IMG/VR virus record: IMGVR_UViG_3300044858_002462
Location: 1-32,213 of that record
Length of the DNA: 32,213 nucleotides
Direction: 5' to 3' (one strand)
Source: a virus
Part shown: piece after piece, positions 15,652-30,073 of the stretch
Layout of the letters: each line of letters starts with the position of its first letter
Position numbering within the stretch: position 1 is the stretch's first letter
The notes under the pieces: generated by a model
What the model saw: the letters and a program-made list of their open reading frames with translations, nothing else
What the model was told of the DNA's origin: nothing
Databases searched by the model: none
Translations under genes and position numbers: made by a program

Positions 15652-16406
15652 GCGTCCCTCCAGTTCCGTGGATCAAGCCGCTTGTACTGCTCCGCGTCCC
15701 GTGCCAAGCCCACAAGAGTGACATCCACACGCTGAAACCCACCACTGCTTTCGTGTATCTCGCGGAGTGCCGCACGAATGCTGTCGCGGCGGATGCCCTC
15801 AAGGATGGGGTTGCGACCGGTGGCGGTTCCGCTGTACACCTTCAGCCACCCATTCATGTACGCCAGACGGATCACATCATACGAAATGTCGATGCCGCCC
15901 ATAAGGATGCTTGCACGAACGGTTTCCGCGTCATGGGGGAACGGTGTGCCTTCCGCATCGTAGGCAGTGCGCCCCATACGCGCCTCGTACTGTGCTTGCT
16001 TGGCAAGTGCGCTCTTCAGTTCGCTCTCTGAAACCCCGAAACGCTTGGGGTTCCGCACCACCTCTGTGACATGGTAGTTGCCCCCTTCAGGCAGGAAGTG
16101 GCGGTGGGTGCCACCGTGGTCAAAGGTGAACCACTGCTCTTTGGGGTGCCACCACCCTGGCACTGCCTTGCTCACAGGCACCCACGGGAACGGATCACGG
16201 CGGGGTTCGCTCTTGCGTTTCCGCTCCGCTGCTGCGAGTGCCTGAGCCGCCAGCCGTGACATGACACCGCCGTATCGCTGTGCCTGCCGCCGCTCGAATG
16301 CACGATCCGCTGCGCTCCTCCGACCAGCAGTCTCTGGTGGGGTGTACGCATTGGGGTTGTCTTCAATGGACAGGCGTTCGGTGATGTAGGCGCGGAATCC
16401 CTTCAT
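15648..16406 (-). CDS. Capsid-targeted protein of unknown function
   Basis: The 252-residue product begins MKGFRAYITERLSIEDNPNA; FRAYITE fits the capsid-targeting pattern. It has a basic helical segment (RQAQRYGGVMSRLAAQALAA, then ERKRKSEPRRD), a His/Trp-rich stretch (WWHPKEQWFTFDHGGTHRHF) and a helical C-terminal part. No known family was recognised. The ATG lies only 5 bases after a CTAAATA late motif, so transcripts from that promoter would be leaderless or nearly so. A terminator just upstream isolates it from the previous gene. Confidence 0.75.
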   Translation of the reverse strand: MKGFRAYITERLSIEDNPNAYTPPETAGRRSAADRAFERRQAQRYGGVMSRLAAQALAAAERKRKSEPRRDPFPWVPVSKAVPGWWHPKEQWFTFDHGGTHRHFLPEGGNYHVTEVVRNPKRFGVSESELKSALAKQAQYEARMGRTAYDAEGTPFPHDAETVRASILMGGIDISYDVIRLAYMNGWLKVYSGTATGRNPILEGIRRDSIRAALREIHESSGGFQRVDVTLVGLARDAEQYKRLDPRNWRDA

Positions 16407-16411
16407 GCCCT

Positions 16412-16418
16412 TATTTAG
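16412..16418 (-). promoter_or_regulatory. Late-type promoter motif CTAAATA, very close to the ATG
   Basis: CTAAATA then AGGGC and the ATG at 16406. The motif lies directly downstream of the terminator at 16421-16446, giving the order terminator, promoter, gene. A start 6 bases beyond the box would put the first transcribed base at the ATG. Confidence 0.6.
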
Positions 16419-18507: not shown

Positions 18508-18527
18508 GCGAGGTTATCGGACCTCGC
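18508..18527. repeat. Hairpin presenting the TTATCGGAC element
   Basis: GCGAGGT (18508-18514), loop TATCGG, ACCTCGC (18521-18527). The perfect 7-bp stem places the intergenic element TTATCGGAC (18514-18522), which recurs upstream of two other early genes, across its loop. Confidence 0.55.
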
Positions 18528-18590
18528 TGTCCCCGTAAGTCCTTATATCCCAAGGGTTTACGAAATATCGCACGGTTTGCCCCCGTGGGC

Positions 18591-18619
18591 TTGCAGAAAT
18601 AGCCCTTTTCCAGTACAAT
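18591..18619 (+). promoter_or_regulatory. Early promoter giving a leaderless mRNA
   Basis: TTGCAG, 17 bases, TACAAT (18614-18619), then 6 bases (TGGGGC) and the ATG at 18626. A normal sigma70 start 6-8 bases after the -10 box would be at or next to the ATG. There is no room for a ribosome-binding site. Confidence 0.65.
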
Positions 18620-18625
18620 TGGGGC

Positions 18626-20977
18626 ATGGTTCCGACTCTCACTACCGCTGCTCCCACCGCTCCTACCGCCGCGAAGTCCATGCTGGCGCGTCTGCTTGCC
18701 ACCGAGAATATTTCGGTGGTTCACCAGAATGTGCCCACGGCATTCTTTGACCTGAAGACGCGCTCCCTCCACCTCCCGCTGTGGTCGAACGCCAGCGGTG
18801 CGCTCTACGATATGCTCGTCGGGCACGAAGTGGCTCACGCCCTGTTCACTCCTGCTGCGGGTTGGAAGGATGCCATCATTGCGGTGAGCGCCGCGACGGG
18901 TGCGTCGGAGGGCATTGCGAAGCAGTACCTGAACATCGTGGAAGACGCGCGCATTGAGCGCCTGATCCAGTCGAAGTTCCGTGGGCTGAAGGGCGACTTC
19001 ATGTCTGCCTACAAGACCCTGATGGAGCGGGAGTTCTTTGGCGACCTGTCGGACATCGGGAGCATGGTGTTCGCTGACCGCTTCAACCTCCACTTCAAGT
19101 GCGGTGTTCACGCTGGTACGGCTGTGCGCTTCACTGCGGAGGAGCAGGTCATGGTGGATCGTGGCGCTGCGATCACCACTTGGGAAGAGGTTGTGGCTCT
19201 CGCTACGGACATGATCCACTACGCCAACGAACAGGCGCAGAAGCAGAAGCAGCAGGAGGAGATGGAGCAGAGCGAGTCGGGTGAAACCGGCACTGCGGAC
19301 ATCGGTGAGGCTGGCGACGGTTCCGAGGGTGGCGAGGAGTCGGAGGACGGCGAGTCCAACACCGGCACTGCCGAGGGTGAGTCACAGGACGGCACCGATG
19401 GTGCGGAGAGCAAGCCCACTGCCGATCAGCAGGGCGAAGACAGCAACGCCAAGGGTGAGCCGTCGAAGCAGCACAAGACCCCCACGAACGCCATCACCGA
19501 CAGCGACCCCATCGCCCCGTCCACGAACGAAGCCCTTGAGCGGGCTCTTCAGGAATTCGCTGACACGAAGGGCGAGGTGCAGGAGATTGTCCGCATCACC
19601 ACCAACGATCTCGCGCAGTGCGCGAAGATCGTGGACTACAAGGGGGTTCTCGCGGATATGCGTGGCTGTGCCATGAGCCGCTACATGGGCACCCCTGTCC
19701 GCATCTCCGACTACACCACTGCGTCCGTCACGATGGCGACCGCGTTCAACCGCCGCAAGGCTGCTGACAACTGGCGCCGCACCACTGTTGCGAAGAGCGG
19801 TTCGCTTGATACCCTCCGCATGAACCAGTACAAGTGGACGGATGACATCTTCCGCCGCACCACGCGCATCGCTGACGGCAAGAACCACGGCATCGTGATT
19901 CTGCTTGACTGGTCGTCTTCCATGAGCAGCATCATGCAGTCCACGATGGGGCAGTTGTTCATCCTCGCGGATTTCTGCCGCAAGTGCAGCATCCCGTTCG
20001 AGGTCTACGCCTTCAGCGACGGACTGTATACGAGCAGCGGCAACTACTACGACAAGACCACTGCTGCGGAGCGCGAGGCATTCTACGCTGCGGATTCGGC
20101 TCGTCGTGAGAATTTCGCGGCTAACGCCTGCGCGGTCACGATGCTGAACCTCCTGTCCTCGCGCATGGGTGGCACGGAGTACGAAGCCATGAAGTCCTGC
20201 CTGTGGAACTGGCGGCAGATGGGCACTGCGGATTCGCGGTATTCCCTCAACGGCACCCCCACCACTGCGGGGCTGCTGGCTGCTGCGGACCTTGTGAAGG
20301 ATTTCATTGCCCGCACTCGCGTTCAGATTGCCCACACCGTGGTGCTGACGGACGGTGAGCCCACCGACGAACTGGCGTTCAATTGGCACAAGCACCGCCA
20401 GACGAACCCCAACACTGACCGCTACGGCACCGGCGTGGCTGTGGTGCTGACCGATCCTGTCACTGGCGCTGCCTACGACATGAACCCGGTTCAGCGCAAC
20501 ACGAAGGACGCGAACGGCTACCGCCAGCGCGACGGCTTCTACCAGTTCGGTGGCATGGATATCCCGAAGGGGCACAGTGGACACCTCCACTCGCTCATCG
20601 CGGTGGACATCGTGCGCCGTCGCACGGGTGCCCGTATGCACTGGGTCGGACTCCGCTACACTGGCGGTGGTCGCGTGAAGGTCACTCCCGAGTACTACGC
20701 GATGAAGTCCAAGAACGCTGATTGGAAGCGTGACGGCTACATCGCTGGCACTGTGTGGGGTTGGGACACGGCTATCGTGGTGGATGCTGACCGCATCCTC
20801 CGTGACGCGAACGGCACGGTGTCTTCCAACGCGCAGCGGATTCTTCAGAAGGCAAACGAGAAGATGGACAACGCCGGTTCGAACCGCACCCTTGCGAATG
20901 CGTTCATTGAATCGCAGATCGCGCAGGGTTCGCTCCGCACGGTGGCTACGCACATTGGAGAATTCCTCGCGGTCTAA
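18626..20977 (+). CDS. CobT-like VWA protein with HExxH domain
   Basis: The 783-residue product has an N-terminal putative metallopeptidase-like domain with GHEVAHALFTP (HExxH at 67-71) and NIVEDARIERLI (Glu106), typical of the phage CobT/peptidase family. A highly acidic, Gly/Ser-rich linker follows (about residues 205-290). The C-terminal half is a von Willebrand A domain with MIDAS residues in DWSSSMSS (Asp428) and LTDGEPTDE (Asp576). CobT with CobS forms the AAA+ part of cobaltochelatase, but no CobN is visible, so a MoxR-VWA style remodelling role is as likely. It is followed by the AAA+ gene. The first promoter gives a predicted leaderless mRNA. Confidence 0.85.
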   Translation: MVPTLTTAAPTAPTAAKSMLARLLATENISVVHQNVPTAFFDLKTRSLHLPLWSNASGALYDMLVGHEVAHALFTPAAGWKDAIIAVSAATGASEGIAKQYLNIVEDARIERLIQSKFRGLKGDFMSAYKTLMEREFFGDLSDIGSMVFADRFNLHFKCGVHAGTAVRFTAEEQVMVDRGAAITTWEEVVALATDMIHYANEQAQKQKQQEEMEQSESGETGTADIGEAGDGSEGGEESEDGESNTGTAEGESQDGTDGAESKPTADQQGEDSNAKGEPSKQHKTPTNAITDSDPIAPSTNEALERALQEFADTKGEVQEIVRITTNDLAQCAKIVDYKGVLADMRGCAMSRYMGTPVRISDYTTASVTMATAFNRRKAADNWRRTTVAKSGSLDTLRMNQYKWTDDIFRRTTRIADGKNHGIVILLDWSSSMSSIMQSTMGQLFILADFCRKCSIPFEVYAFSDGLYTSSGNYYDKTTAAEREAFYAADSARRENFAANACAVTMLNLLSSRMGGTEYEAMKSCLWNWRQMGTADSRYSLNGTPTTAGLLAAADLVKDFIARTRVQIAHTVVLTDGEPTDELAFNWHKHRQTNPNTDRYGTGVAVVLTDPVTGAAYDMNPVQRNTKDANGYRQRDGFYQFGGMDIPKGHSGHLHSLIAVDIVRRRTGARMHWVGLRYTGGGRVKVTPEYYAMKSKNADWKRDGYIAGTVWGWDTAIVVDADRILRDANGTVSSNAQRILQKANEKMDNAGSNRTLANAFIESQIAQGSLRTVATHIGEFLAV

Positions 20978-21063
20978 AAAACCCCAAGAATTTGCAAATG
21001 GCATAACTGCCCACAAAGCAACCACTTACACCAGTTATTATCGGACCCACTTTCACAAAAGCC
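20978..21063. other. Short gap with upstream element
   Basis: A gap of under 100 bases between the CobT-like and CobS-like genes. It holds TTATCGGAC at 21038-21046, the same sequence that lies at the same distance before the 29294 gene. No terminator stem with a T-run was seen. Confidence 0.5.
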
Positions 21064-21092
21064 TTGAAATACAGGCACTATTCCAGTACAAT
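21064..21092 (+). promoter_or_regulatory. Early promoter giving a leaderless mRNA
   Basis: TTGAAA (21064-21069), 17 bases, TACAAT (21087-21092), then 7 bases and the ATG at 21100. The upstream ATG at 21091 overlaps the -10 box, so it cannot be in the transcript from this promoter. Confidence 0.65.
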
Positions 21093-21099
21093 GAACCAC

Positions 21100-22455
21100 A
21101 TGAAGAACACCATGAAGACCGCTTCCTACACCGTTTCGTCCTCGCAGTTTGATTTCATCAATCTCGTCCGCACCCACCTTGCGAAGTTCGGCATCACTGC
21201 CGCGAACACCTGCAACGGGCAGTCCGTGCAGTTCTCGCCGCTCTTCAAGGCGGCAGTCGCTGCGCGGTACTCCGCAGTGCCCGCGTGGTGCATGAGCGCC
21301 GACCGCAAGGTGGCGCGTGGCGTGTACGCCATCCCCGAACTCTTTGCCGACCCGAAGGCGTTCACCGTGGTTGAGGTGAAGCGCGGTCGCAAGCCTGGCT
21401 CCACCAACGCGAAGCCGAAGGCGGAAGCCGCTGCTCCCGTGACCGTTCCCGCCACTGCGGTCACCGCTGACGCTCCCGCTGTTGCGGAGTGCAGTGCGGT
21501 CGCGCTGACCTCTGGCACGGACAGTGCGGAACTCGCTCGTACCATCACGCAGGGCGAGAGCGAGTCCTTCACTCCCGCCGTGGACGACAACTACATTCCG
21601 TGGGGCTACCACAACGAGATCAAGTCCATCATCAAGTCCAAGCGGTTCTGCCCTGTGTTCATCACGGGTCTGAGCGGCAACGGCAAGACCACGATGGTGG
21701 AGCAGGTGTGCGCGTCCCTCAAGCGCGAGTGCATCCGCGTGAACTTCACCGCCGCGACGGACGAGGACGAACTGCTCGGCGGCTTCCGCCTCATCGGTGG
21801 CGAGACTCGTTTCGTGCCTGGTCCCGTTCTCGTCGCAATGGAGCGCGGTGCAGTGCTGCTCCTTGACGAGATCGACCTCGGCGGTCACCTCATCATGTGC
21901 CTTCAGTCTGTCCTCGAAGGCAAGGGCAAGTTCGTGCCGAAGATCGGCAAGTATGTGCGCCCTGCGCCTGGCTTCACCATCGTCGCCACTGCCAACACCA
22001 AGGGCAAGGGCAGCGATGACGGGCGTTTCGCTGGCACGAACATCCTCAATGAGGCGTTCCTTGACCGTTTCGCGTTCACCTACGAGCAGGACTACGCTGA
22101 CCCGAAGGTGGAGAAGCGCATCCTGAAGAAGGTCGCGGACGGGCTCGGCGTGGACGATGATGCGTTCCTTGACAATCTCGTGTCGTGGGCTGACATCATC
22201 CGCAAGTCGTTCAAGCAGCAGGTGGTGAGCGAGATCATCACCACGCGCCGTCTGCGCGACATCGTGTTCGCGTACTCCGTGTTCGGTGACAAGATGACCG
22301 CGATTGAGCGGTGCGTGTCGCGGTTCGACCCCACCACGAAGGAGTCGTTCACCCAGTTCTACACGAAGGTGGACGCGGACGCGCAGCCGAAGCCCGCTGA
22401 CGCTGCGGCTCCTGCCGCGCCGAAGGCGAACGATCCCAACGCTTGCCCGTTCTGA
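21100..22455 (+). CDS. CobS/MoxR-type AAA+ ATPase with N-terminal DNA-binding-like domain
   Basis: I chose the ATG at 21100, 7 bases after the -10 box; earlier in-frame starts lie inside the promoter. The 451-residue product has an N-terminal domain (residues 1-105) ending in KRGRKPGS, an AT-hook-like basic motif. A variable linker follows, then an AAA+ ATPase: Walker A GLSGNGKTT (190-198, Lys196), the CobS/MoxR insert FTAATDEDELLGGF, Walker B LLLDEID (Asp256, Glu257), sensor ATANTKGKG and a C-terminal helical lid. CobS/MoxR rings hydrolyse ATP to remodel a partner through a VWA protein, here probably the preceding gene product. The C-terminus is Ala/Pro-rich. Confidence 0.9.
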   Translation: MKNTMKTASYTVSSSQFDFINLVRTHLAKFGITAANTCNGQSVQFSPLFKAAVAARYSAVPAWCMSADRKVARGVYAIPELFADPKAFTVVEVKRGRKPGSTNAKPKAEAAAPVTVPATAVTADAPAVAECSAVALTSGTDSAELARTITQGESESFTPAVDDNYIPWGYHNEIKSIIKSKRFCPVFITGLSGNGKTTMVEQVCASLKRECIRVNFTAATDEDELLGGFRLIGGETRFVPGPVLVAMERGAVLLLDEIDLGGHLIMCLQSVLEGKGKFVPKIGKYVRPAPGFTIVATANTKGKGSDDGRFAGTNILNEAFLDRFAFTYEQDYADPKVEKRILKKVADGLGVDDDAFLDNLVSWADIIRKSFKQQVVSEIITTRRLRDIVFAYSVFGDKMTAIERCVSRFDPTTKESFTQFYTKVDADAQPKPADAAAPAAPKANDPNACPF

Positions 22456-22466
22456 TTGGAGCGCAC

Positions 22467-22796
22467 ATGAAGACCAGTCCACATGGCGGCATCCGCATCG
22501 TGCATCGTCCCCAGGAAGGCAAGACGATCCACGAACACAATCAGATCAGGATTGCCTTCCCCAACGGATACGAAGCCAGCATCATCTACGGTGCCCTCGC
22601 GTATTCCACCAACGCAAACGGTGAGCGCATCACCGCACCGCTCGGAGACACAGAGTTCGCTTCCACTGTAGAGGTTCAAATCATCAGACCAAACGGCAAC
22701 CCCGTGCCGTTCAAAGACGGGGGCGAAGTAAAGGGATTTGTGTCCCTCGCTGAACTGTTCCAAATTCTCAACTGGGTCAACACCCAAAAGGACTGA
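22467..22796 (+). CDS. Small hypothetical protein
   Basis: The ATG at 22467 has GGAG six bases upstream and lies 11 bases after the AAA+ gene. The 109-residue product is beta-rich (IRIAFPNGYEASIIYG, TVEVQIIRPNGNPVPF) with a C-terminal helix (LAELFQILNWVNT). No family was recognised. Its place in the CobT/CobS-like operon suggests an accessory role. Confidence 0.8.
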   Translation: MKTSPHGGIRIVHRPQEGKTIHEHNQIRIAFPNGYEASIIYGALAYSTNANGERITAPLGDTEFASTVEVQIIRPNGNPVPFKDGGEVKGFVSLAELFQILNWVNTQKD

Positions 22797-22803
22797 AATT
22801 CAA

Positions 22804-23154
22804 ATGCTTAACTCTTACACCCCTGGTCAGATCGCGTTCATCAAGTTTCTTCAGGACAACCGCACCCGCATCACCGTGTTCAACGGCGATGTGGTGAGCC
22901 GCAAGGATTTGGTGGATGTGCTGTCGGGTTCGCCGTATGTGGCAGTCCCCGCGTGGATTGCTGCGGACAAGACGCGCCGCGCTGGTCGTGGCAACTACCA
23001 CCTGCCCGAACTCGCTGCTGATCTCTCGGCTCTCACCGTGAACACCAACAAGCGCGGTCGCAAGCCTGGCTCCCGCAACAAGAAGGGGCGCGAGGACGGC
23101 ACCGATGCCACTGCTGACACTGACTCTCCCGCACTCACCACCACCACTGCCTAA
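22804..23154 (+). CDS. Stand-alone copy of the AAA+ protein's N-terminal domain
   Basis: The 116-residue product (MLNSYTPGQIAFIKFLQDNR) matches the N-terminal domain of the CobS-like protein. AVPAWIAADKTRRAGRGNYH aligns with AVPAWCMSADRKVARGVYAI, then PELAADLSALTV with PELFADPKAFTV, then KRGRKPGSRNKK with KRGRKPGSTNAK. The RGRKPGS segment is AT-hook-like. The C-terminus is Thr/Ala/Asp-rich. It therefore looks like a duplicated DNA-binding or adaptor domain that could compete or oligomerise with the ATPase. The start has AAGGA ten bases upstream. Confidence 0.85.
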   Translation: MLNSYTPGQIAFIKFLQDNRTRITVFNGDVVSRKDLVDVLSGSPYVAVPAWIAADKTRRAGRGNYHLPELAADLSALTVNTNKRGRKPGSRNKKGREDGTDATADTDSPALTTTTA

Positions 23155-23429
23155 TGAAGACTGCTCTACTCGCACTCGCGGCTCTCGCTCTCGCGGGATG
23201 CCACACCAATACGCACATCACCCGCACCATCCACAGGGCTGACGGCTCTACGGAGATTTACGAGAACCGCTCGGACGGCTACAACTACAACCCCAATTTC
23301 ACGGGGCACATGGACAACAACTACCAGGTCCACTCCAGCACCCACACGAACGCTAACGCAAATTCGGAATACAACTCCTTTCAGCGCATCACGCTTCCGC
23401 CCAATGGACAGTACCCCGTCAACCAGTGA
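23154..23429 (+). CDS. Small phage lipoprotein
   Basis: The 91-residue product starts MKTALLALAALALAGC, a textbook lipoprotein signal with lipobox LAGC and lipidated Cys16. There is no Asp after Cys, so outer-membrane sorting is expected. The mature part is Asn/Thr/Tyr/His-rich and probably unstructured (NPNFTGHMDNNYQVHSSTHT). The start overlaps the previous stop as TAATG, so it is coupled to the AAA+ accessory gene. Phage lipoproteins such as T5 Llp block superinfection; such a role here is an inference. Confidence 0.85.
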   Translation: MKTALLALAALALAGCHTNTHITRTIHRADGSTEIYENRSDGYNYNPNFTGHMDNNYQVHSSTHTNANANSEYNSFQRITLPPNGQYPVNQ

Positions 23430-23433
23430 CCCC

Positions 23434-23661
23434 ATGCTCACGAAGACCACCATCACCATCCTCCGCGCCCGTAACACGCAACTCATGCACGAAAACGGCG
23501 TTCTCCGCCGCCGCGTGGCACGGTTGAGCCAACTCATCGACCTTGCGGGTGTGGAATTGGAGCCGCACCATCACGATCTGGACGAACTCACCCCCGACTA
23601 CGGACCAGGTGGGCAGGAGTGGATTGATCCCGCCAGCGGCGCGGACACTTGGAATCACTGA
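23434..23661 (+). CDS. Small coiled-coil protein
   Basis: The 75-residue product starts MLTKTTITILRARNTQLMHE and continues NGVLRRRVARLSQLIDL, one long amphipathic helix. An acidic tail rich in His, Asp and Pro follows. An ATG at 23404 would add ten residues but overlaps the lipoprotein gene. I chose 23434, 4 bases after that stop; no clear ribosome-binding site was seen for either. Coiled-coil leucine spacing suggests dimerisation. The function is unknown. Confidence 0.65.
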   Translation: MLTKTTITILRARNTQLMHENGVLRRRVARLSQLIDLAGVELEPHHHDLDELTPDYGPGGQEWIDPASGADTWNH

Positions 23662-23670
23662 AAAGAATTA

Positions 23671-23743
23671 GTTCCCGTAGCACAGAGGATAGTGCAGCCG
23701 CCTTCTAAGCGGCAGGTCATTGGTTCGAATCCAATCGGGAACG
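23671..23743 (+). tRNA. tRNA-Arg (UCU)
   Basis: It folds as a complete cloverleaf: acceptor GTTCCCG/CGGGAAC, D arm, anticodon stem GCCGC/GCGGC with loop CTTCTAA (anticodon TCT), and T arm ATTGG/CCAAT with loop TTCGAAT. The 3' CCA is not encoded. It reads AGA, which is likely rare in a GC-rich host. Confidence 0.92.
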
Positions 23744-23753
23744 CGATCACACC

Positions 23754-23960
23754 ATGAACACCAACTACACCACTGTTCGTAACGGAGTCGTGCTGCTGTG
23801 GCGGCACGGATGGAACTCGCCCTCTGCGTCCTTTGGACGGGACGCTGCCTCTGCTGTGACCTACGGTGACGAAATCGTAGTGAATTGGCGGAACGGCAAG
23901 TCCACTCTGTACCGCATCACCCCCAACGGCACGAATGCCGTGCCTGTCCGCACTCTCTGA
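23754..23960 (+). CDS. Small hypothetical protein
   Basis: The 68-residue product (MNTNYTTVRNGVVLLWRHGW...) is beta-rich, with repeated strand patterns (GDEIVVNWRNGKSTLYRITP). It lies right after tRNA-Arg. The ribosome-binding site is weak. No family was recognised. Confidence 0.6.
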   Translation: MNTNYTTVRNGVVLLWRHGWNSPSASFGRDAASAVTYGDEIVVNWRNGKSTLYRITPNGTNAVPVRTL

Positions 23961-23972
23961 GAAATCAATCCA

Positions 23973-24137
23973 ATGCCACGAATTCAATACTTCATCGAAG
24001 AGCCTGCCGCTGACGCACCCGAAACCGATTGGAACGCATTCTGCGCGTCCATTGACTCCGACTCTGATCCCCGCGAGGGCAAGCGCCCCGTGGAAGACGA
24101 TGAGTGGTGCGACGAAGACGATTACGACGGCGACTAA
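23973..24137 (+). CDS. Very small acidic protein
   Basis: The 54-residue product starts MPRIQYFIEEPAADAPETDW and ends EDDEWCDEDDYDGD, with very high Asp and Glu content, like DNA-mimic or inhibitor peptides. It starts 12 bases after the previous stop and ends just before a TTAAATA motif and tRNA-Leu. Coding status rests on length, spacing and composition only. Confidence 0.5.
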   Translation: MPRIQYFIEEPAADAPETDWNAFCASIDSDSDPREGKRPVEDDEWCDEDDYDGD

Positions 24138-24144
24138 TTAAATA
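24138..24144 (+). promoter_or_regulatory. Possible late-type motif TTAAATA before tRNA-Leu
   Basis: TTAAATAAATC lies so that a start 5-6 bases after the box would coincide with the first base of the tRNA (24149). The TAAATAAATC string is shared with the motif at 24587. Confidence 0.4.
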
Positions 24145-24148
24145 AATC

Positions 24149-24221
24149 GGCACTGTAGTCCAACGGCAGAGACATCCGACTCAAAATCGGTACAGTGTGG
24201 GTTCGAATCCCACCAGTGCTA
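24149..24221 (+). tRNA. tRNA-Leu (CAA), with short variable arm
   Basis: Acceptor GGCACTG/CAGTGCT (one G-U), anticodon loop CTCAAAA (anticodon CAA) on a 4-bp stem CCGA/TCGG, T arm GTGGG/CCCAC with TTCGAAT, and A73. The variable arm is only five bases, unlike normal class II tRNA-Leu. CCA is not encoded. Confidence 0.75.
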
Positions 24222-24234
24222 TTAAGGAAAACCC

Positions 24235-24594
24235 ATGCGATACGATAAATTCATGCTGCTAGTTGAAAAGGAAGGCGGCTTTGACCGCTATGCCCTGCTT
24301 GGACGGGGGGACACTGAAGTGACCATCCGCACGATATGGGCATCCGGTGGGAGCGAACAGTCCTATGTGTGGTTCTTTCTGTATGCGCCTGGTCATGTGG
24401 GCACCAGTGGGAACGGTGGGTGGAACTACGAGTGGAGCGTGGACGGCAAGCCCTACCGACTGACCCACGATTGGGGTGTGGCGTGGTATCGCACCAATGG
24501 GCGCAAACTATGGGCGCACCTCACACGCACAGGCTGGCAAACCCTCCGCACTGGTGGAATCGTGTCTGCCACTGGTGAACTCTTAACTAAATAA
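24235..24594 (+). CDS. Small hypothetical protein
   Basis: The 119-residue product (MRYDKFMLLVEKEGGFDRYA...) has a clear AAGGA site. It is rich in Trp, Tyr and Gly with alternating strands (SYVWFFLYAPGHVGTSGNGG, then WNYEWSVDGKPYRLTHDWG). It resembles a compact beta-sandwich. No family was recognised. Its stop codon overlaps a CTAAATA box. Confidence 0.75.
   Translation: MRYDKFMLLVEKEGGFDRYALLGRGDTEVTIRTIWASGGSEQSYVWFFLYAPGHVGTSGNGGWNYEWSVDGKPYRLTHDWGVAWYRTNGRKLWAHLTRTGWQTLRTGGIVSATGELLTK
24587..24593 (+). promoter_or_regulatory. Late-type motif CTAAATA with no following gene
   Basis: CTAAATAAATCT overlaps the stop codon of the 119-residue gene. The next gene is 330 bases away behind a terminator, so this box would only drive a short RNA (24599-24671). 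Confidence 0.5.
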
Positions 24595-24598
24595 ATCT

Positions 24599-24671
24599 GT
24601 AGCCCGCCGCATTTCGTTTGCGGATCGCTACAACGCCCCTGTCTGCCTACGCACAGACAGGGGCTTTTTTG
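24599..24671 (+). ncRNA. Candidate small RNA (hairpin plus terminator)
   Basis: A start 6 bases after the CTAAATA box is the G at 24599. The RNA would begin with GUAGC, which pairs with GCUAC (24627-24631) around CCGCA/TGCGG (24607-24611, 24619-24623), and end at the terminator 24635-24671. Length about 73. There is no ORF. Everything except the motifs is inferred. Confidence 0.4.
24635..24671 (+). terminator. Strong rho-independent terminator
   Basis: GCCCCTGTCTG (24635-24645), loop CCTACGCA, CAGACAGGGGC (24654-24664), then TTTTTT. It separates the tRNA/small-gene segment from the next early operon. Confidence 0.9.
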
Positions 24672-24886
24672 TTTCTACGCTGCGCTATGGGCTGTCGGAG
24701 AACAGTGCCTGGTGATGTGTGGTGGGGTTTACCAAGGCGTTTAGCACACCGAAAACAAATCCATTCATTTCAGTTTTAAAAATTGACCGTGGGACTCCCC
24801 ACCAAAACAGTTTTCAAATATTGGGTTCCCATACACACCACCCACACCTTTTCAAATATTGGTGCCGTGAAATAGCCGTCTTCCCC
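24672..24886. other. Intergenic stretch with direct repeats
   Basis: No gene was recognised between the terminator and the early promoter at 24887. It carries two copies of TTTTCAAATATTGG (24811-24824, 24849-24862), 38 bases apart. Related AATATT(T/G)GA(A) strings occur in other intergenic gaps. They could be activator or repressor sites. Confidence 0.5.
24811..24862. repeat. Direct repeat TTTTCAAATATTGG, two copies
   Basis: Copies at 24811-24824 and 24849-24862 lie 38 bases apart, close to four helical turns, directly upstream of an early promoter (-35 at 24887). The core AAATATTG also occurs near the promoter at 27690. Confidence 0.6.
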
Positions 24887-24914
24887 TTGCGCTGTCCCCA
24901 CACCCGTGTATACT
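24887..24914 (+). promoter_or_regulatory. Early promoter giving a leaderless mRNA
   Basis: TTGCGC (24887-24892), 16 bases, TATACT (24909-24914), 7 bases, ATG at 24922. It has the same geometry as the other early promoters. Confidence 0.65.
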
Positions 24915-24921
24915 CTGCTAC

Positions 24922-25377
24922 ATGACTACCACACCCGCTACACCCCCCGCGTACCCCTTCCCCTCCCGCTACGGACAGTTCCGCTCCATTACGGCACTAC
25001 CCCGCACTGGCGGTGCCACACGGCAATATATTATTCAGGGGGACACCCGCTACACCCGTGGGGGGGAGGGCATGATTGATTTTGAAGGGGGACCGTTCGT
25101 GTCCACCCATTCTTTTATTGATCCAGATGACACCGAAACCCCTGCGTTCTTGGAGCGGCAGATTGGTGCGTTTCCGTGCGTTGCCCCCGACGAGGTGGTG
25201 ATTGGGGCACAGTGGCTCACGACAGAGGAGGCAGAGTGGGCACTGGGAAACCCCCTCATGCGCCGTGAGCGGTACGGCTACGCACTGGTTACCACCGTGC
25301 CGTTTGCCCAGTGGGGAAGCGAACGGGAGGAAGCGAACGCGAACACTGCCGCGTGGAGGGTGGGCGATGGAGAGTAA
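24922..25377 (+). CDS. Hypothetical early protein
   Basis: The 151-residue product (MTTTPATPPAYPFPSRYGQF...) is the first gene of an early operon and has no ribosome-binding site. It contains an ITALPRTGGATRQYIIQGDT strand pair, a DPDDTETPAFLERQIG turn and a C-terminal LTTEEAEWALGNPLMRR helix that resembles the EEARRxW element in other small proteins here. The function is unknown. Confidence 0.75.
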   Translation: MTTTPATPPAYPFPSRYGQFRSITALPRTGGATRQYIIQGDTRYTRGGEGMIDFEGGPFVSTHSFIDPDDTETPAFLERQIGAFPCVAPDEVVIGAQWLTTEEAEWALGNPLMRRERYGYALVTTVPFAQWGSEREEANANTAAWRVGDGE

Positions 25378-25621
25378 TTCCACAAAGAGCCAATTTGACT
25401 CACTCACCCAGACCATCGGGGCACTCCGTGCCCAAGTAGCAGAACTACAGGTGCAGAACGAATTGCTGGAGTACCGCTTGGAGCGCAGCGAACGGGCACG
25501 GCGCGATCTGGAGCGCGAGGTGCAGGAACACCGTGCGTATTGGGGCACCTCTCGTATCCCTGATTTTTCACAATCAGTTTACGATCCCCGTGGTGGATGG
25601 GGCAAAGGCAAGGACGAATGA
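25367..25621 (+). CDS. Small coiled-coil protein
   Basis: The ATG at 25367 has GGAGGG upstream and overlaps the previous gene by 11 bases. The 84-residue product has a long helix (QTIGALRAQVAELQVQNELL, then EYRLERSERARRDLEREVQE) with heptad-like spacing. A Gly-rich C-terminus follows (RGGWGKGKDE). It probably forms a dimeric coiled coil. The function is unknown. Confidence 0.75.
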   Translation: MESNSTKSQFDSLTQTIGALRAQVAELQVQNELLEYRLERSERARRDLEREVQEHRAYWGTSRIPDFSQSVYDPRGGWGKGKDE

Positions 25622-25998
25622 CACCACACACTCCATACACCCTCACGGACGCACGGGGCGAGGTGTGGAGTTTTGAAGTCCATCCGTTGGCAGGCACGGT
25701 GATCGTGGTGTCCCCTGCGTGGAGCGGACGGCAACCCTTTCCCCTCCTGTACCGCAAAACCTTTCTGCGGGAGACACTGAAGCAGTTAAAGGATGTTCAG
25801 GTGGCACGGCTGTTTGATGACGCACGGGTGTTCTCCCGCTACTACTCCCCCGTGATAAATCCGTATGAACACGATGACTGGACGCGGAACACCGTTGAGA
25901 TCGGCATCCGCATACGGTTCACTCCCGAAAACCCGTCTGTGGTGATGGAGCGTGAGGACGCGCGGCGGCTGTGGGGGCTGCTGGCTTCAGCCGCATAA
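25618..25998 (+). CDS. Hypothetical early protein
   Basis: The 126-residue product (MTPHTPYTLTDARGEVWSFE...) starts in an ATGA overlap with AAGGA upstream. It has GTVIVVSPAWSGRQPFPLLY and a C-terminal MEREDARRLWGLLASA. These match the pattern of the 27724 protein (GSVIVVGFDG and LTPEEARRHWAE), so they look like distant relatives of one small family. The function is unknown. Confidence 0.75.
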   Translation: MTPHTPYTLTDARGEVWSFEVHPLAGTVIVVSPAWSGRQPFPLLYRKTFLRETLKQLKDVQVARLFDDARVFSRYYSPVINPYEHDDWTRNTVEIGIRIRFTPENPSVVMEREDARRLWGLLASAA

Positions 25999-26001
25999 AT
26001 A
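25994..26001 (+). promoter_or_regulatory. Late-type promoter motif CATAAATA
   Basis: The first of two late-type boxes before the capsid-targeted 26073 gene. It overlaps the stop codon of the previous gene. Confidence 0.55.
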
Positions 26002-26022
26002 GGGGCGGAGCGGGAGACAGCC

Positions 26023-26029
26023 CTAAATA
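26023..26029 (+). promoter_or_regulatory. Late-type promoter motif CTAAATA
   Basis: The second box, 43 bases before the ATG at 26073. A start 6 bases downstream falls inside the left arm of the hairpin at 26031-26050. Confidence 0.6.
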
Positions 26030-26030
26030 G

Positions 26031-26058
26031 GAGCGGCAGGAATGCCGCTCTTATTCTT
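26031..26058 (+). terminator. Possible terminator overlapping the late start site
   Basis: GAGCGGC (26031-26037), loop AGGAAT, GCCGCTC (26044-26050), then TTATTCTT. The stem is perfect but the T-run is broken. It could stop the upstream early operon. Confidence 0.5.
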
Positions 26059-26072
26059 TCAAGGACTCCCCA

Positions 26073-26459
26073 ATGAAATCATTCTCCACATTTGTTGCAG
26101 AAGCGTGTTGGAAAGGCTACAGAGCCAAGGGCACAAAACTCAAAGGTGGACGGCAGGTTCCGAACTGCGTTCCCGTACAAGAAGCCTCTCCTGCTTGGCA
26201 GCGCAAAGAGGGCAAGAACCCCGAGGGTGGCTTGAACGCGGCAGGCGTGGCTTCCTACCGCCGTGCGAACCCTGGTTCCAAACTCCAAACCGCTGTGACC
26301 ACAAAGCCGAGCAAACTAAAGCCAGGTTCAAAAAGCGCAAAACGCCGCAAGTCCTTCTGCTCTCGCATGAAGGGCATGAAGGCTAAACTCACCTCCGCGA
26401 AAACTGCGCGTGATCCGGATTCACGAATTAATAAATCCCTGCGGAAATGGAATTGCTAA
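26073..26459 (+). CDS. Capsid-targeted basic phage protein
   Basis: The 128-residue product begins MKSFSTFVAEACWKGYRAKG; FSTFVAE fits the capsid-targeting pattern, so this is the one rightward gene with such a start. It continues with SPAWQRKEGKNPEGGLNAAG, then SYRRANPGSKLQTAVTTKPS, and KRRKSFCSRMKGM, and ends LRKWNC. This order is typical of a small basic domain found in many phages and large viruses, whose function is unknown. Two late-type boxes upstream and a AAGGA site fit late expression. Internal packaging is an inference. Confidence 0.85.
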   Translation: MKSFSTFVAEACWKGYRAKGTKLKGGRQVPNCVPVQEASPAWQRKEGKNPEGGLNAAGVASYRRANPGSKLQTAVTTKPSKLKPGSKSAKRRKSFCSRMKGMKAKLTSAKTARDPDSRINKSLRKWNC

Positions 26460-26462
26460 ATA
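26456..26462 (+). promoter_or_regulatory. Late-type motif CTAAATA at the end of the 26073 gene
   Basis: The box overlaps the stop codon. Only about 100 bases follow before a strong terminator, so it would drive a short RNA. Confidence 0.5.
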
Positions 26463-26467
26463 CTTTA

Positions 26468-26584
26468 GTCATCGGGGCGGTAGCCGTAGACAGTGCGAAC
26501 TGGATTACGCTACTCATGCGTTGCGGGAACTTCGCTACCTGTTGACCGTTGGAGAGGGGAGCCGCAAGGCTCCCTTTTCTTTTA
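26468..26584 (+). ncRNA. Candidate small structured RNA
   Basis: The predicted start is about 26468 and the end is at the terminator 26557-26584. A hairpin at 26480-26513 has GTAGC/GCTAC, then GTA/TAC, then CAGT/ACTG closed by a GCGA tetraloop (GNRA type). A weaker hairpin follows near 26522-26534. A 32-codon ORF starting at 26447 overlaps the region but has a poor ribosome-binding site. Confidence 0.4.
26557..26584 (+). terminator. Rho-independent terminator
   Basis: GGGAGCC (26557-26563), loop GCAA, GGCTCCC (26568-26574), then TTTTCTTTT. It ends the 26073 transcription unit or the candidate small RNA. Confidence 0.85.
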
Positions 26585-26588
26585 AATA
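26581..26588 (+). promoter_or_regulatory. Possible late-type promoter TTTAAATA
   Basis: TTTAAATA differs from the T4 consensus TATAAATA at one position. It sits right after the terminator and could drive the outer-membrane protein gene at 26698. Confidence 0.4.
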
Positions 26589-26620
26589 ATGAAATGAAGT
26601 ATGAAAATAAAAATTCCTGG

Positions 26621-26637
26621 AGCGGGCTGCGCCCGCT
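26621..26637. repeat. Inverted repeat in the OMP leader
   Basis: AGCGGGC, loop TGC, GCCCGCT. A perfect 7-bp stem with no T-run, 77 bases before the ATG. It may be part of an RNA leader structure. Confidence 0.6.
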
Positions 26638-26656
26638 AGACTGCTCTAGATATGAC

Positions 26657-26682
26657 ACCCCTCAATTCCGAGGGGTCTTTTT
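26657..26682 (+). terminator. Terminator-like hairpin in the OMP leader
   Basis: ACCCCTC (26657-26663), loop AATTCC, GAGGGGT (26670-26676), then CTTTTT. It lies only about 15 bases before the ATG, just in front of the AAAAGGAG site. It could act as an attenuator, or as a stop for upstream transcripts if a promoter overlaps it. Confidence 0.7.
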
Positions 26683-26697
26683 GAAAAGGAGAGTCTG

Positions 26698-27432
26698 ATG
26701 AAGACACTACTATCAACACTTGCTGCGGCAACGGTTGCCGCATCTGCCAGCGCACAGGACGCAAACCCTGTGGCACAGAACCCTTTCTCCAACTTCACCC
26801 TCACCGAAACGGTGGGCGTGTACGCGAAGAAGGGGAGTGCCGATTCCGTGGCTGCTCTGAACACCCTGTTGGGCGTGAAGGCAGTGGGAATCGACTGGCG
26901 CGTGAACGCTCCTGTCTATGTGTCTGACAGCAGCGGCTACGGCAGCATTGAACTCGGTGCAGGGTGGGAGGCGTTCAAGGGGCTGAAGTTCCTCAACGCA
27001 GACACCACCATCACCGTGGACGGTGGGCTGTGGCTACCGACTGGTTCTGCTGACTACTTTGCCACCAATGTCAACCCACACATCGGTGTGGGCGCTGCGA
27101 TGGATTGGGGCGCGTGGTCTTTCAAGCAGACCTTTGACTGGCGGTTCATCACGGGTGGATCAATGTACGATCCTCTCATTGACCGCTTCTCGTCTGACCT
27201 TGCCACACTTGTGTCCAGCCTACAGTACGACTTGAACGAGTCGCTGAAGGTGGGCGTGGATCTGGGTCAGTATTACTTCAGCAACAGCGGCACTGTTATG
27301 CTTACTCCCAACGCTAAGTGGGCAGTGGCACAGTCCGTTGATGTTCAGGCGGGGATCGGTTTCCCGCTGTGGCAGGATCTCGCTGTAGAGAACAATCTTG
27401 TCGTGAACGCTGGTGTTTCATTCAAGTTCTAA
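26698..27432 (+). CDS. Phage-encoded outer-membrane beta-barrel protein
   Basis: The 244-residue product starts MKTLLSTLAAATVAASASAQ, a Sec signal with ASA before Gln20. The mature part shows alternating beta strands (IDWRVNAPVYVSDSSGYGSI, WSFKQTFDWRFITGG, LKVGVDLGQYYFSNSG) and ends VVNAGVSFKF with a terminal Phe, the BAM-complex recognition signature of outer-membrane proteins. The barrel likely has about 8-12 strands. The AAAAGGAG site is strong and the gene is followed at 19 bases by a small membrane protein. Possible roles are blocking superinfection, changing host permeability or aiding release. No sequence evidence selects among these. Confidence 0.85.
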   Translation: MKTLLSTLAAATVAASASAQDANPVAQNPFSNFTLTETVGVYAKKGSADSVAALNTLLGVKAVGIDWRVNAPVYVSDSSGYGSIELGAGWEAFKGLKFLNADTTITVDGGLWLPTGSADYFATNVNPHIGVGAAMDWGAWSFKQTFDWRFITGGSMYDPLIDRFSSDLATLVSSLQYDLNESLKVGVDLGQYYFSNSGTVMLTPNAKWAVAQSVDVQAGIGFPLWQDLAVENNLVVNAGVSFKF

Positions 27433-27451
27433 ATTCAAAAGGAGAAATAAA

Positions 27452-27604
27452 ATGAACAAGAACTCTTGCCCCGTTACTGGCTGCTTCTGCTGGAAGAACC
27501 CCCTGCACCTCGTTGCATTTTTTGCGGTGCTTCCGTTTGCAGTAAAGGGTGTCTCGTTTGTGTGGTCGGCTCTGACCAACACCATCGACACTCTCGTAAA
27601 GTAA
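27452..27604 (+). CDS. Small membrane protein paired with the OMP
   Basis: The ATG at 27452 has AAAAGGAG eight bases upstream. The 50-residue product starts MNKNSCPVTGCFCWKNPLHL and carries one membrane segment (about residues 18-40). Three Cys lie near the N-terminus (C6, C11, C13). It lies 19 bases after the OMP gene and before a terminator, so the two form one unit. Confidence 0.75.
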   Translation: MNKNSCPVTGCFCWKNPLHLVAFFAVLPFAVKGVSFVWSALTNTIDTLVK

Positions 27605-27630
27605 ATCCAAAAACTTAATGGATTAAGAAC

Positions 27631-27658
27631 TAGAGGCGGAAACGCCTCTATTTCTTTT
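27631..27658 (+). terminator. Rho-independent terminator after the OMP cassette
   Basis: TAGAGGCG (27631-27638), loop GAAA, CGCCTCTA (27643-27650), then TTTCTTTT. It closes the OMP/small membrane protein unit. Confidence 0.9.
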
Positions 27659-27689
27659 GGTAAAATATTGAAACAAATATTCGTGGGGC

Positions 27690-27717
27690 TTGCGCCCTGT
27701 GGCACGGGCTGTATAAT
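27690..27717 (+). promoter_or_regulatory. Early promoter giving a leaderless mRNA
   Basis: TTGCGC (27690-27695), 16 bases, perfect TATAAT (27712-27717), 6 bases (TTGGGC), ATG at 27724. Confidence 0.7.
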
Positions 27718-27723
27718 TTGGGC

Positions 27724-28173
27724 ATGACACCGAACGGCTACTACTTCCCCACCCCGCTTGACACCCTGAGCAAGCAGCACTACCTCACCCGATTTGACGG
27801 GCAGTGGCTGTGGGGCTACTTCCCGTGGAACGGCAGCGTGATCGTGGTGGGCTTTGACGGGTCGCGTCCAGACTCCCTTGAAAACATCAGGGAGAACTCC
27901 GTGACCGATCTGCTCACGCCTGAAGAGGCACGGCGGCACTGGGCAGAGCGCATCGGGTGGGGCTTTTCTGTAGTCTCACCGAATGAGTGCGACACCAAGA
28001 CCGCCACGCACCGAGGGGTGGTCTACGGACTGGCTCTGAAGTTCCGCGCCGCGCGGACGGCAAATGCAAAGGGGCTGATACAGGACTTGATGCACGAATT
28101 CTATTCGGGAAAGCAGAAGCCCGTGAACCGCAAGCACGAAACACCCAACACTCTATACGCACTGGAGGCTTGA
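27724..28173 (+). CDS. Hypothetical early protein
   Basis: The 149-residue product (MTPNGYYFPTPLDTLSKQHY...) is the first gene of its operon and has no ribosome-binding site. It contains FDGQWLWGYFPWNGSVIVVG and LTPEEARRHWAERIGW; both elements recur in weaker form in the 25618 protein. The C-terminus is helical and basic. The function is unknown. Confidence 0.75.
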   Translation: MTPNGYYFPTPLDTLSKQHYLTRFDGQWLWGYFPWNGSVIVVGFDGSRPDSLENIRENSVTDLLTPEEARRHWAERIGWGFSVVSPNECDTKTATHRGVVYGLALKFRAARTANAKGLIQDLMHEFYSGKQKPVNRKHETPNTLYALEA

Positions 28174-28176
28174 ACC

Positions 28177-28617
28177 ATGCACGACCAAGACGCAGTATAC
28201 GAAGATTGGAAGACACGATTCCCCCTGTGCTTTGAGCGCAAGGGCTGTTGTATGTCTTTTGGAATTGAACACGGCAGCGGATGGAACGGCATCATTGAGC
28301 GACTGCTCCAAAAGATTGAGGCGCATCTCGCGGAGAAGTATGCCGCAGGATTCCGCGATCCCGACTACGGATTTCAGATTGACCAGATCAAGGAAAAGTA
28401 TGGAACCCTGCGCTTCTATGTGATGGGCGCGGACGATCAGATTTTCCAATGGATTGACGAAGCAGAACGGGCAAGCGCATACACTTGTGAAAAGTGCGGC
28501 GCAACGGATGCACGGCTACACACCCGCACTGGTGGGTTTTGGCTGTATACCCGTTGCCCACAGTGTGCCGATCCCGCAGTGATGGAACCGTATAAGTCGG
28601 AACTCCATGATATCTGA
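28177..28617 (+). CDS. Conserved phage protein with C-terminal zinc ribbon
   Basis: The 146-residue product starts MHDQDAVYEDWKTRFPLCFE. It has a conserved core (GIEHGSGWNGIIERLLQKIE, then FQIDQIKEKYGTLRFYVMG) known from many phage and bacterial hypothetical proteins. A C-terminal zinc ribbon C104/C107 and C127/C130 (CEKCGA...CPQC) follows. The GGAGG site and a 3-base gap after the previous gene show coupling. The biochemical role is unknown; the ribbon suggests nucleic acid or protein binding. Confidence 0.85.
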   Translation: MHDQDAVYEDWKTRFPLCFERKGCCMSFGIEHGSGWNGIIERLLQKIEAHLAEKYAAGFRDPDYGFQIDQIKEKYGTLRFYVMGADDQIFQWIDEAERASAYTCEKCGATDARLHTRTGGFWLYTRCPQCADPAVMEPYKSELHDI

Positions 28618-29170
28618 AGAAGAACTGTTTGCTGCGATGCGGCGAGTGAACGCGCTGCACAAGCGCACACTAGAACGATTAGCCCAAACCGAAAACGGAG
28701 AACCCATGACACTGCCACACGAAGAAGTCCACAGTCTCCAAGCAGTCCGTAGATTTCTTTACGATCTGCTTGACCCCACTGCCACCCCGCGAGTCCCGAA
28801 GGAGATTCGTCAACGGGCACGGCGCGTGTGCAAGCACTTCCCGATGGACTACAGTATTCAGGAGCGTTACCCTGATGTATTCAACCCCGAGAGAAACATG
28901 AACACTACACCCAATACGATTGTTGCCGATGCCGCCCAAGAACTGCTTGATTCAGGAAAGACTGTTCAAGTGGAATTCACCAAGAAGGACGGAACCATTC
29001 GCTCCATGATCTGCACCCGTGACATGAAGCGCATTCCTGAAGATCGCCACCCGAAGGGCACGGGCAAGCAGCGGAGCGAGAACACCATCATTGCCTTTGA
29101 TTTGGAAAAGGGCGAGTGGCGTTCGTTCCTGCGCGAGTCCGTGCGCGTGGTGCGCGTGGTAGAGATTTAA
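28607..29170 (+). CDS. Two-domain regulator-like protein (possible fusion)
   Basis: The 187-residue product overlaps the previous gene by 11 bases. Residues 33-95 (TLPHEEVHSLQAVRRFLYDL, then TPRVPKEIRQRARRVCKHFP) match a small helical family known in Proteobacteria and phages. Residues 98-187 start MNTTPNTIVADAAQELLDSG and contain VEFTKKDGTIRSMICTRDMK and GEWRSFLRESVRVVRV. This matches a small SH3-fold phage domain usually found alone. An internal ATG (28898-28900) at the junction suggests fusion or an internal start. Confidence 0.8.
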   Translation: MISEEELFAAMRRVNALHKRTLERLAQTENGEPMTLPHEEVHSLQAVRRFLYDLLDPTATPRVPKEIRQRARRVCKHFPMDYSIQERYPDVFNPERNMNTTPNTIVADAAQELLDSGKTVQVEFTKKDGTIRSMICTRDMKRIPEDRHPKGTGKQRSENTIIAFDLEKGEWRSFLRESVRVVRVVEI

Positions 29171-29194
29171 ATATCGGATTTGTTGAGCCGCGCG

Positions 29195-29221
29195 AAAACC
29201 CCTGCAAACACAGGGGTTTTT
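29195..29221 (+). terminator. Rho-independent terminator
   Basis: AAAACCCCTG (29195-29204), loop CAAACA, CAGGGGTTTT (29211-29220), plus T. The symmetric A and T runs mean it could work in both directions. Confidence 0.88.
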
Positions 29222-29230
29222 CGTATATAA

Positions 29231-29239
29231 TTATCGGAC
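29231..29239 (+). promoter_or_regulatory. Shared upstream element TTATCGGAC
   Basis: It lies 25 bases before the -35 box of the 29294 gene. The same nine bases lie 26 bases before the -35 box of the 21100 gene and also at 18514-18522. This suggests a regulator site for early genes. Confidence 0.45.
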
Positions 29240-29255
29240 TTTGTGAATCCGCCTC

Positions 29256-29285
29256 TTGACGGCGACCCCGTGTTTCCAGTATAAT
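29256..29285 (+). promoter_or_regulatory. Early promoter giving a leaderless mRNA
   Basis: TTGACG (29256-29261), 18 bases, TATAAT (29280-29285), 8 bases (TTGGGCAT), ATG at 29294. This is the best sigma70 match in the window. Confidence 0.75.
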
Positions 29286-29293
29286 TTGGGCAT

Positions 29294-30073
29294 ATGGCTA
29301 CTGCCTCACCTACCCGCACTCGTCGCTCTCGCACCATGCCGAAGCCCTACACGCCGTACACGCTCAACCAGTCCGCGCTGCCCTACGGTCTGTGGATTGA
29401 CATCCCGTTCCGCAAGCGTGGCAGCACTGCCGTGCGTTCGGATGCGAAGCGGCGCGGTGCGCGGTTCTGCCCTGCCGCGAAGGGCAAGATCAAGTGGTGG
29501 ATGCCACGGAGCCACCTGAGCGTGGAAACCGTGAATTGGCTCAATGCGAACGAGATGATTCGCGGTGAGCGCAAGGCTCCCGCGTTTGATCCCAACGCGC
29601 TGAAGGTTTCGGACATTGACCTGTCCCACCCCTTCCGCATTTACCTCCATGTGCCGTTCGCAGACAAGGACACCGCGAAGGCACACGGTGCGCTGTGGAG
29701 CGCGGACGAGCGCAAGTGGTATTTCAATGCCACGAACCTCACGCCCCAACGCTTTGACGAGATGCTGAAGCGGGAGTGGGTGTTCTCGTTCCACGGGCAC
29801 ATCAAGGGTGTCAGCGGCATCACCTGTCGGTATTTCCGTGCGGAGGACAACGGCAGCGATGCTCCTGATGCTCCGCCGCCGTTCGTGTCCACCGAATGGG
29901 TTTTCTTCAAGGACGGGTGTTTCGTCACGATGCAGACCCTGCACGATGGGCGCATCGCTCTCGCGTCCGATCACGATGACTTCCATTCCGCCATCTACAC
30001 GAAGGACGCGGCGCGTAGCATTTGGAATGTGTTGATCGCGGAGGGTTGGGTTCTGAAGGGAAACATCAAGTAA
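29294..30073 (+). CDS. Protein with two DUF5710-like modules
   Basis: In this 259-residue product, residues 116-145 (IYLHVPFADKDTAKAHGALW, then SADERKWYF) match the small DUF5710/TraC-type module (L.VPFxxKdxAKxxGAxWdxxxKxWY). Residues 36-72 (DIPFRKRGSTAVRSDAKRRG, then ARFCPAAKGKIKWWMP) look like a degenerate first copy. The C-terminal part (CFVTMQTLHDGRIALASD, then KDAARSIWNVLIAEGW) resembles an element in other small proteins here. The module is common near DNA primases and plasmid transfer proteins; its role is unclear. The mRNA is predicted leaderless. Confidence 0.8.
   Translation: MATASPTRTRRSRTMPKPYTPYTLNQSALPYGLWIDIPFRKRGSTAVRSDAKRRGARFCPAAKGKIKWWMPRSHLSVETVNWLNANEMIRGERKAPAFDPNALKVSDIDLSHPFRIYLHVPFADKDTAKAHGALWSADERKWYFNATNLTPQRFDEMLKREWVFSFHGHIKGVSGITCRYFRAEDNGSDAPDAPPPFVSTEWVFFKDGCFVTMQTLHDGRIALASDHDDFHSAIYTKDAARSIWNVLIAEGWVLKGNIK

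Follow-up and report, generated by a model that had tools for sequence, protein, structure and literature searches.

Predicted leaderless first genes at promoter-start fusions in a clade of T4-like phages, on sigma70-like and on some late promoters

The locus and its phage clade

The window analysed here is the whole of the IMG/VR virus fragment IMGVR_UViG_3300044858_002462, a stretch of 32,213 bases. Its left part carries, on the - strand, tail genes and others of T4-like phage families, and from 18.6 kb the + strand encodes a VWA/CobT-like 'peptidase' gene, a CobS-like AAA ATPase, two tRNAs and many small genes. Its relatives (L001-L007, L081-L084) are T4-like myoviruses: matches to T4-like families were obtained for DNA polymerase, portal, sheath, terminase and gp55, the nearest being in cyanophages and a Pelagibacter phage at ~50% identity. 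Homologues of gp55 were found in the relatives, in 7 of the 11 contigs searched and among them all those >90 kb, the window being a fragment. A search for psbA gave none in 12 records, several of which are fragments, and some cyanophages also lack this gene; a phage-encoded S21, a possible link to initiation, was looked for and none was found.

The labels "early" and "late" are assigned here from promoter type. TAAATA motifs of the T4 type are present in the + strand arm at 24139, 24588, 25996, 26024, 26457 and 26583, around the tRNAs and the genes at 26073 and 26698, which makes a purely early arm improbable.

Five promoters joined to start codons in the window

The first-pass annotation had described five sigma70-like promoters with spacers of 16-18 nt and an ATG 6-8 nt past the -10 box, three of them with a short (T)TGGG(G)C string after that box; all of this is borne out (Table 1), the G-rich discriminator containing GGGC belonging to the promoters at 18591, 27690 and 29256. 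A strict scan rule, defined after the five sites were seen, required a -35 box beginning with TTG, a -10 box with 5/6 matches, a gap of 6-8 nt and a pyrimidine before the ATG. Its + strand hits were precisely the five sites and the - strand gave none, whereas 300 dinucleotide shuffles of the window averaged 0.07 hits and never exceeded 2. The loose pattern TTG-N-TANNNT-N6-8-ATG, found 6 times against a shuffle mean of 1.2 and maximum of 7, shows a modest excess and is much weaker evidence than the strict one; the independent test of the five sites is provided by the relatives.

Table 1. Promoter-start fusions and associated elements in the window (distances in nt)
Feature	Position	Strand	-35	Spacer	-10 or late core	To ATG	ATG	Remarks
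T4-type late promoter core and start, 252-aa gene	16404..16417	-			TAAATA 16417-16412	AGGGC (5)	16406	
TATCGGAC	18515..18522	+						before the VWA promoter; conserved among the relatives
Imperfect palindrome GTAAGTCCTT-N-AAGGGTTTAC	18535..18562	.						upstream of VWA promoter, read by eye
Sigma70-type promoter and start, VWA/CobT-like 'peptidase' gene	18591..18628	+	TTGCAG 18591-18596	17	TACAAT 18614-18619	TGGGGC (6)	18626	gene 18626-20977
TATCGGAC	21039..21046	+						61 nt before CobS ATG
Promoter and start, CobS-like AAA ATPase	21064..21102	+	TTGAAA 21064-21069	17	TACAAT 21087-21092	GAACCAC (7)	21100	gene to 22455
Promoter and start, unknown 151-aa gene	24887..24924	+	TTGCGC 24887-24892	16	TATACT 24909-24914	CTGCTAC (7)	24922	
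Promoter and start, unknown 149-aa gene	27690..27726	+	TTGCGC 27690-27695	16	TATAAT 27712-27717	TTGGGC (6)	27724	
TATCGGAC	29232..29239	+						62 nt before DUF5710 ATG
Promoter and start, 259-aa gene with DUF5710 domain	29256..29296	+	TTGACG 29256-29261	18	TATAAT 29280-29285	TTGGGCAT (8)	29294	

A Shine-Dalgarno (SD) core (GGAG, GAGG or AGGA) precedes none of the five fused ATGs, and is found before 14 of the 21 other listed window starts on the + strand and 11 of the 22 on the - strand. The earlier statement that the remaining genes mostly carry SD sites therefore stands for the + strand and falls for the structural side, where half do.

Spacing, Shine-Dalgarno sites and initiator base across relatives

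Gene calling by a hexamer model, with the contigs pooled for training, gave 900 genes for the window and eight close relatives, and the distance of sigma70-like -10 boxes to in-frame ATGs was measured. Across these nine contigs 52 starts form a sharp peak at 6-8 nt (31 at 6 nt, 13 at 7 nt and 8 at 8 nt; 12-14 nt when counted from the first base of the -10 box), flanked by 7 starts at 3-5 nt and a single one at 9-11 nt. About three of the 52 look like false positives (G006 48175, which has an SD site, G003 111494 and G007 45309). Three more distant contigs (G010, G012, G013) likewise peak at 6 nt, and the first-gene regions of 12 contigs hold 34 promoter-ATG fusions versus 2.6 in shuffles. Sigma70-like promoters of the relatives form a second, lower peak at 18-23 nt, most of these with an SD site. 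Fused starts make up about 5-8% of called genes in the clade.

No SD site precedes 51 of the 52 starts at 6-8 nt, and for 49 of them there is no SD-preceded in-frame start up to 20 codons downstream either (present for 3/52). A pyrimidine (C or T) stands directly 5' of the ATG in 50/52, compared with 492/951 among all called ATG starts (p 5e-12), and GTG or TTG occurs at this spacing in 1 of 1178 candidates, versus 52 of 1351 for ATG (p 2e-13); both p-values assume independent sites and are too small, the 52 sites representing about 17 gene families of one clade. The pyrimidine before the ATG fits the preference of RNA polymerase for a pyrimidine-purine start, with the A of the ATG as the probable +1, and where the spacing is 8 nt, +1 may fall 1-2 nt upstream of the ATG. 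The restriction to ATG looks translational, as in E. coli, rather than a matter of choosing the transcription start, because GTG also begins with a purine and its G could serve as +1. Use of GTG beside ATG, a mycobacterial-type trait, was not seen (1 GTG versus 52 ATG); leaderless GTG starts in E. coli, unlike those in mycobacteria, have <10% of the activity of ATG (PMC4633059).

Conservation in orthologues and upstream elements

The fused layout is kept by the VWA gene in 9/9 contigs that carry it, by CobS at 6-8 nt in 7/9 orthologues (the G001 orthologue has 9 nt), by the 149-aa gene at 27724 in 5/5 orthologues, and by a UvdE-like gene and a 66-aa gene in 4/4 contigs each. The names UvdE-like, clamp-loader-like and RuvC-like are readings of translated sequences, with no database hits behind them. 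For the DUF5710 gene 7/8 orthologues are leaderless by layout, the exception being G015, whose SD-bearing copy follows another gene at a distance of 19 nt. The 24922 gene is leaderless by layout in G016 and probably in G003 (TAATAT, 6 nt), and of the SD type in G001, G014 and G015. These two families, the clamp-loader-like gene and an 89-aa gene switch, having SD sites and no adjoining leaderless promoter in several relatives, and most of the switched, SD-bearing orthologues lie inside an operon. Within operons the clamp-loader-like gene has an SD site in G007 and G015, though not in G006, and the 89-aa gene has one in G001, G006 and G014, with neither signal in G015 and G016. An orthologue inside an operon thus usually has an SD site instead of a leaderless promoter.

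In the window and, at matching places, in the relatives, TATCGGAC stands 61-62 nt ahead of the starts of CobS and DUF5710 and some 70-111 nt ahead of that of VWA, there with the variants TATTGGAC and TACCGGAC. It is rare elsewhere, most other leaderless promoters lack it, and it is a possible candidate for a regulator binding site. Palindromes similar to that in Table 1 were seen by eye before VWA and CobS in the relatives.

Late promoters with the same layout

Many starts have TAAATA, the T4-type late promoter core, 17-45 nt upstream, and when it lies within 5-60 nt an SD site is usual (97/124). A separate class has the ATG exactly 5 nt on, with 20 starts, none at 3-4 nt and 1 at 6 nt, and no SD site in any of the 20. 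Its members include a RuvC-like 192-aa gene (6/7 contigs), a family of roughly 550 aa (4/5) and a 252-aa gene (5/8); one of the 20, G003 115668, stands before the VWA promoter and may be chance. In the window the class is represented by the 252-aa gene at 16406 on the - strand, a candidate late leaderless start outside the range covered by the first-pass annotation, which has no SD site and the same layout in its orthologues of G007, G014, G015 and G016. The fixed distance of its TAAATA and the presence of gp55 in the relatives agree with a T4-type late promoter. Since these 20 late starts at 5 nt exist, the leaderless layout is not an early trait.

Discussion

The reading that we favor, at a probability of roughly 0.86, is that this uncultured clade carries promoter-start fusions whose first genes are leaderless and SD-independent, that these are also found on a subset of late promoters, and that they are a stable trait of the clade not limited to early genes. 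The original observation is real, and its reading as leaderless first genes draws strong support from the spacing, the initiator base, the lack of SD sites, ATG-only use and conservation, all read from the sequence; it is not special to early genes. The 5' ends, the leaderless translation, the acting sigma factor and the time of expression we infer. Under the favored reading host sigma70 RNA polymerase would initiate on the A of the ATG or no more than about 2 nt from it, and the first gene would be translated from a 5'-terminal AUG with no SD pairing, the ribosome and fMet-tRNA probably binding this AUG directly. Downstream genes of the operon mostly retain SD sites. The same layout is present on some T4-type (gp55-dependent) late promoters, with TAAATA exactly 5 nt before the ATG, and would represent a stable, inherited way to start selected units in this phage clade, beyond early genes.

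Several observations bear on the host. ARAGORN identified permuted tmRNAs in four relatives (L091:15190-15592, L097:6387-6801(-), L118:5046-5438, L121:5047-5439), with a match to Rfam RF04321 in the two scanned, tags ending in AMAA and many adjoining tRNAs; no similar phage record was found. Permuted tmRNA of this type is known from alpha- and some beta-proteobacteria and from cyanobacteria. Two MAG contigs came out of a GTDB contig scan, and their labels disagree (Betaproteobacteria and Bacteroidetes). On a 6.2-kb contig of the Betaproteobacteria MAG the same VWA promoter is present (L146:5140-5170, TACAAT-ATTGAT-ATG); this is likely a binned phage contig, and no permuted tmRNA was found in that MAG. 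The single-cell record AG-345-E15 was rejected as a host clue, because it is a cyanophage-like relative at a greater distance and lacks this promoter set.

It is possible, although we consider it unlikely, that the phage simply copies the habit of a host from one of the lineages where at least a fifth of genes are leaderless (Actinobacteria, Deinococcus-Thermus); its layout, leaderless all the same, would then be nothing unusual. The type of permuted tmRNA argues against such a host, as does the Betaproteobacteria label, which depends on binning and is weak evidence. In those lineages a TANNNT signal lies some 10-12 nt ahead of the start codon, as here (PMC3160421), whereas the use of ATG only, with no GTG, departs from mycobacteria, which use both (PMC4633059). 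It is quite improbable that leadered mRNAs from further upstream carry translation, with the near -10 boxes minor or inactive. CobS (21100) begins about 120 nt behind the VWA gene, so read-through is possible there, and the conserved upstream elements are compatible with more distant starts; but ATGs without SD sites would have no usual site on a leadered mRNA, the gene before VWA is divergent and offers no read-through, and promoter bases and ATG spacing are kept together. Marginally less probable again is the proposal of the first-pass annotation that leaderless initiation marks early units as a separate translation route suited to early infection: the window's sigma70-like promoters before first genes are all leaderless by layout, but the SD-led sigma70-like promoters in relatives and the conserved late leaderless class leave that proposal unsupported. 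A chance arrangement in AT-rich spacers is hardly credible, for although the loose pattern does arise randomly, the strict count, the sharp peak and the orthologue conservation speak against it and the relatives have already refuted it.

The layout resembles bacterial TA-led leaderless genes of Actinobacteria and Deinococcus-Thermus, in which the -10 box lies about 10-12 nt before the start with no SD site (PMC3160421, PMC12340547); unlike these, it belongs to a T4-like phage clade, in a small share of called genes, with ATG only and two promoter classes. Lambda cI mRNA offers a phage gene translated from a 5'-terminal AUG, as proposed here (PMC9031893), but it is a single gene of a temperate phage, whereas here many conserved genes of T4-like phages are concerned. 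T4-like cyanophages (Kyanoviridae, e.g. P-RSM4) share homologous VWA 'peptidase', CobS, DNA polymerase, portal and gp55, and their loci, unlike those of the clade, have leadered promoters with peaks at 21-25 nt (sigma70-like) and 18-24 nt (late). A control on 70 loci, with T4-like cyanophages predominating, had its sigma70 peak at 21-25 nt, no peak at six to eight and no five-nt TAAATA class, and the strong leaderless cases came mainly from a few other loci. The TAAATA core and gp55 homologue are common to T4 late promoters (TATAAATA, gp55) and the clade, which differs in a subset whose ATG follows TAAATA by exactly 5 nt, leaving no leader. Giant phage AR9 was ruled out as a precedent, its leaders being 26-491 nt long.

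Leaderless mRNA is of a known kind, and we did not find its systematic use in both promoter classes of a T4-like clade described; a literature search that took in few subscription papers gave no description of this layout in T4-like phages. To our knowledge, leaderless mRNA in phages is known mainly from single genes. This clade apparently uses leaderless starts in many conserved genes with two sigma factors, and offers ready-made material for experiments on the benefit of leaderless initiation. One speculative answer, which we regard as doubtful, is that a fixed leaderless set in both promoter classes (VWA/CobS, UvdE-like, RuvC-like 192-aa and others) would give SD-independent proteins while the rest remain SD-dependent, for instance when phage or host alters 30S subunits or initiation factors. 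For annotation, the promoter can serve to locate start sites in such phages, and SD-dependent gene callers may misplace some of them.
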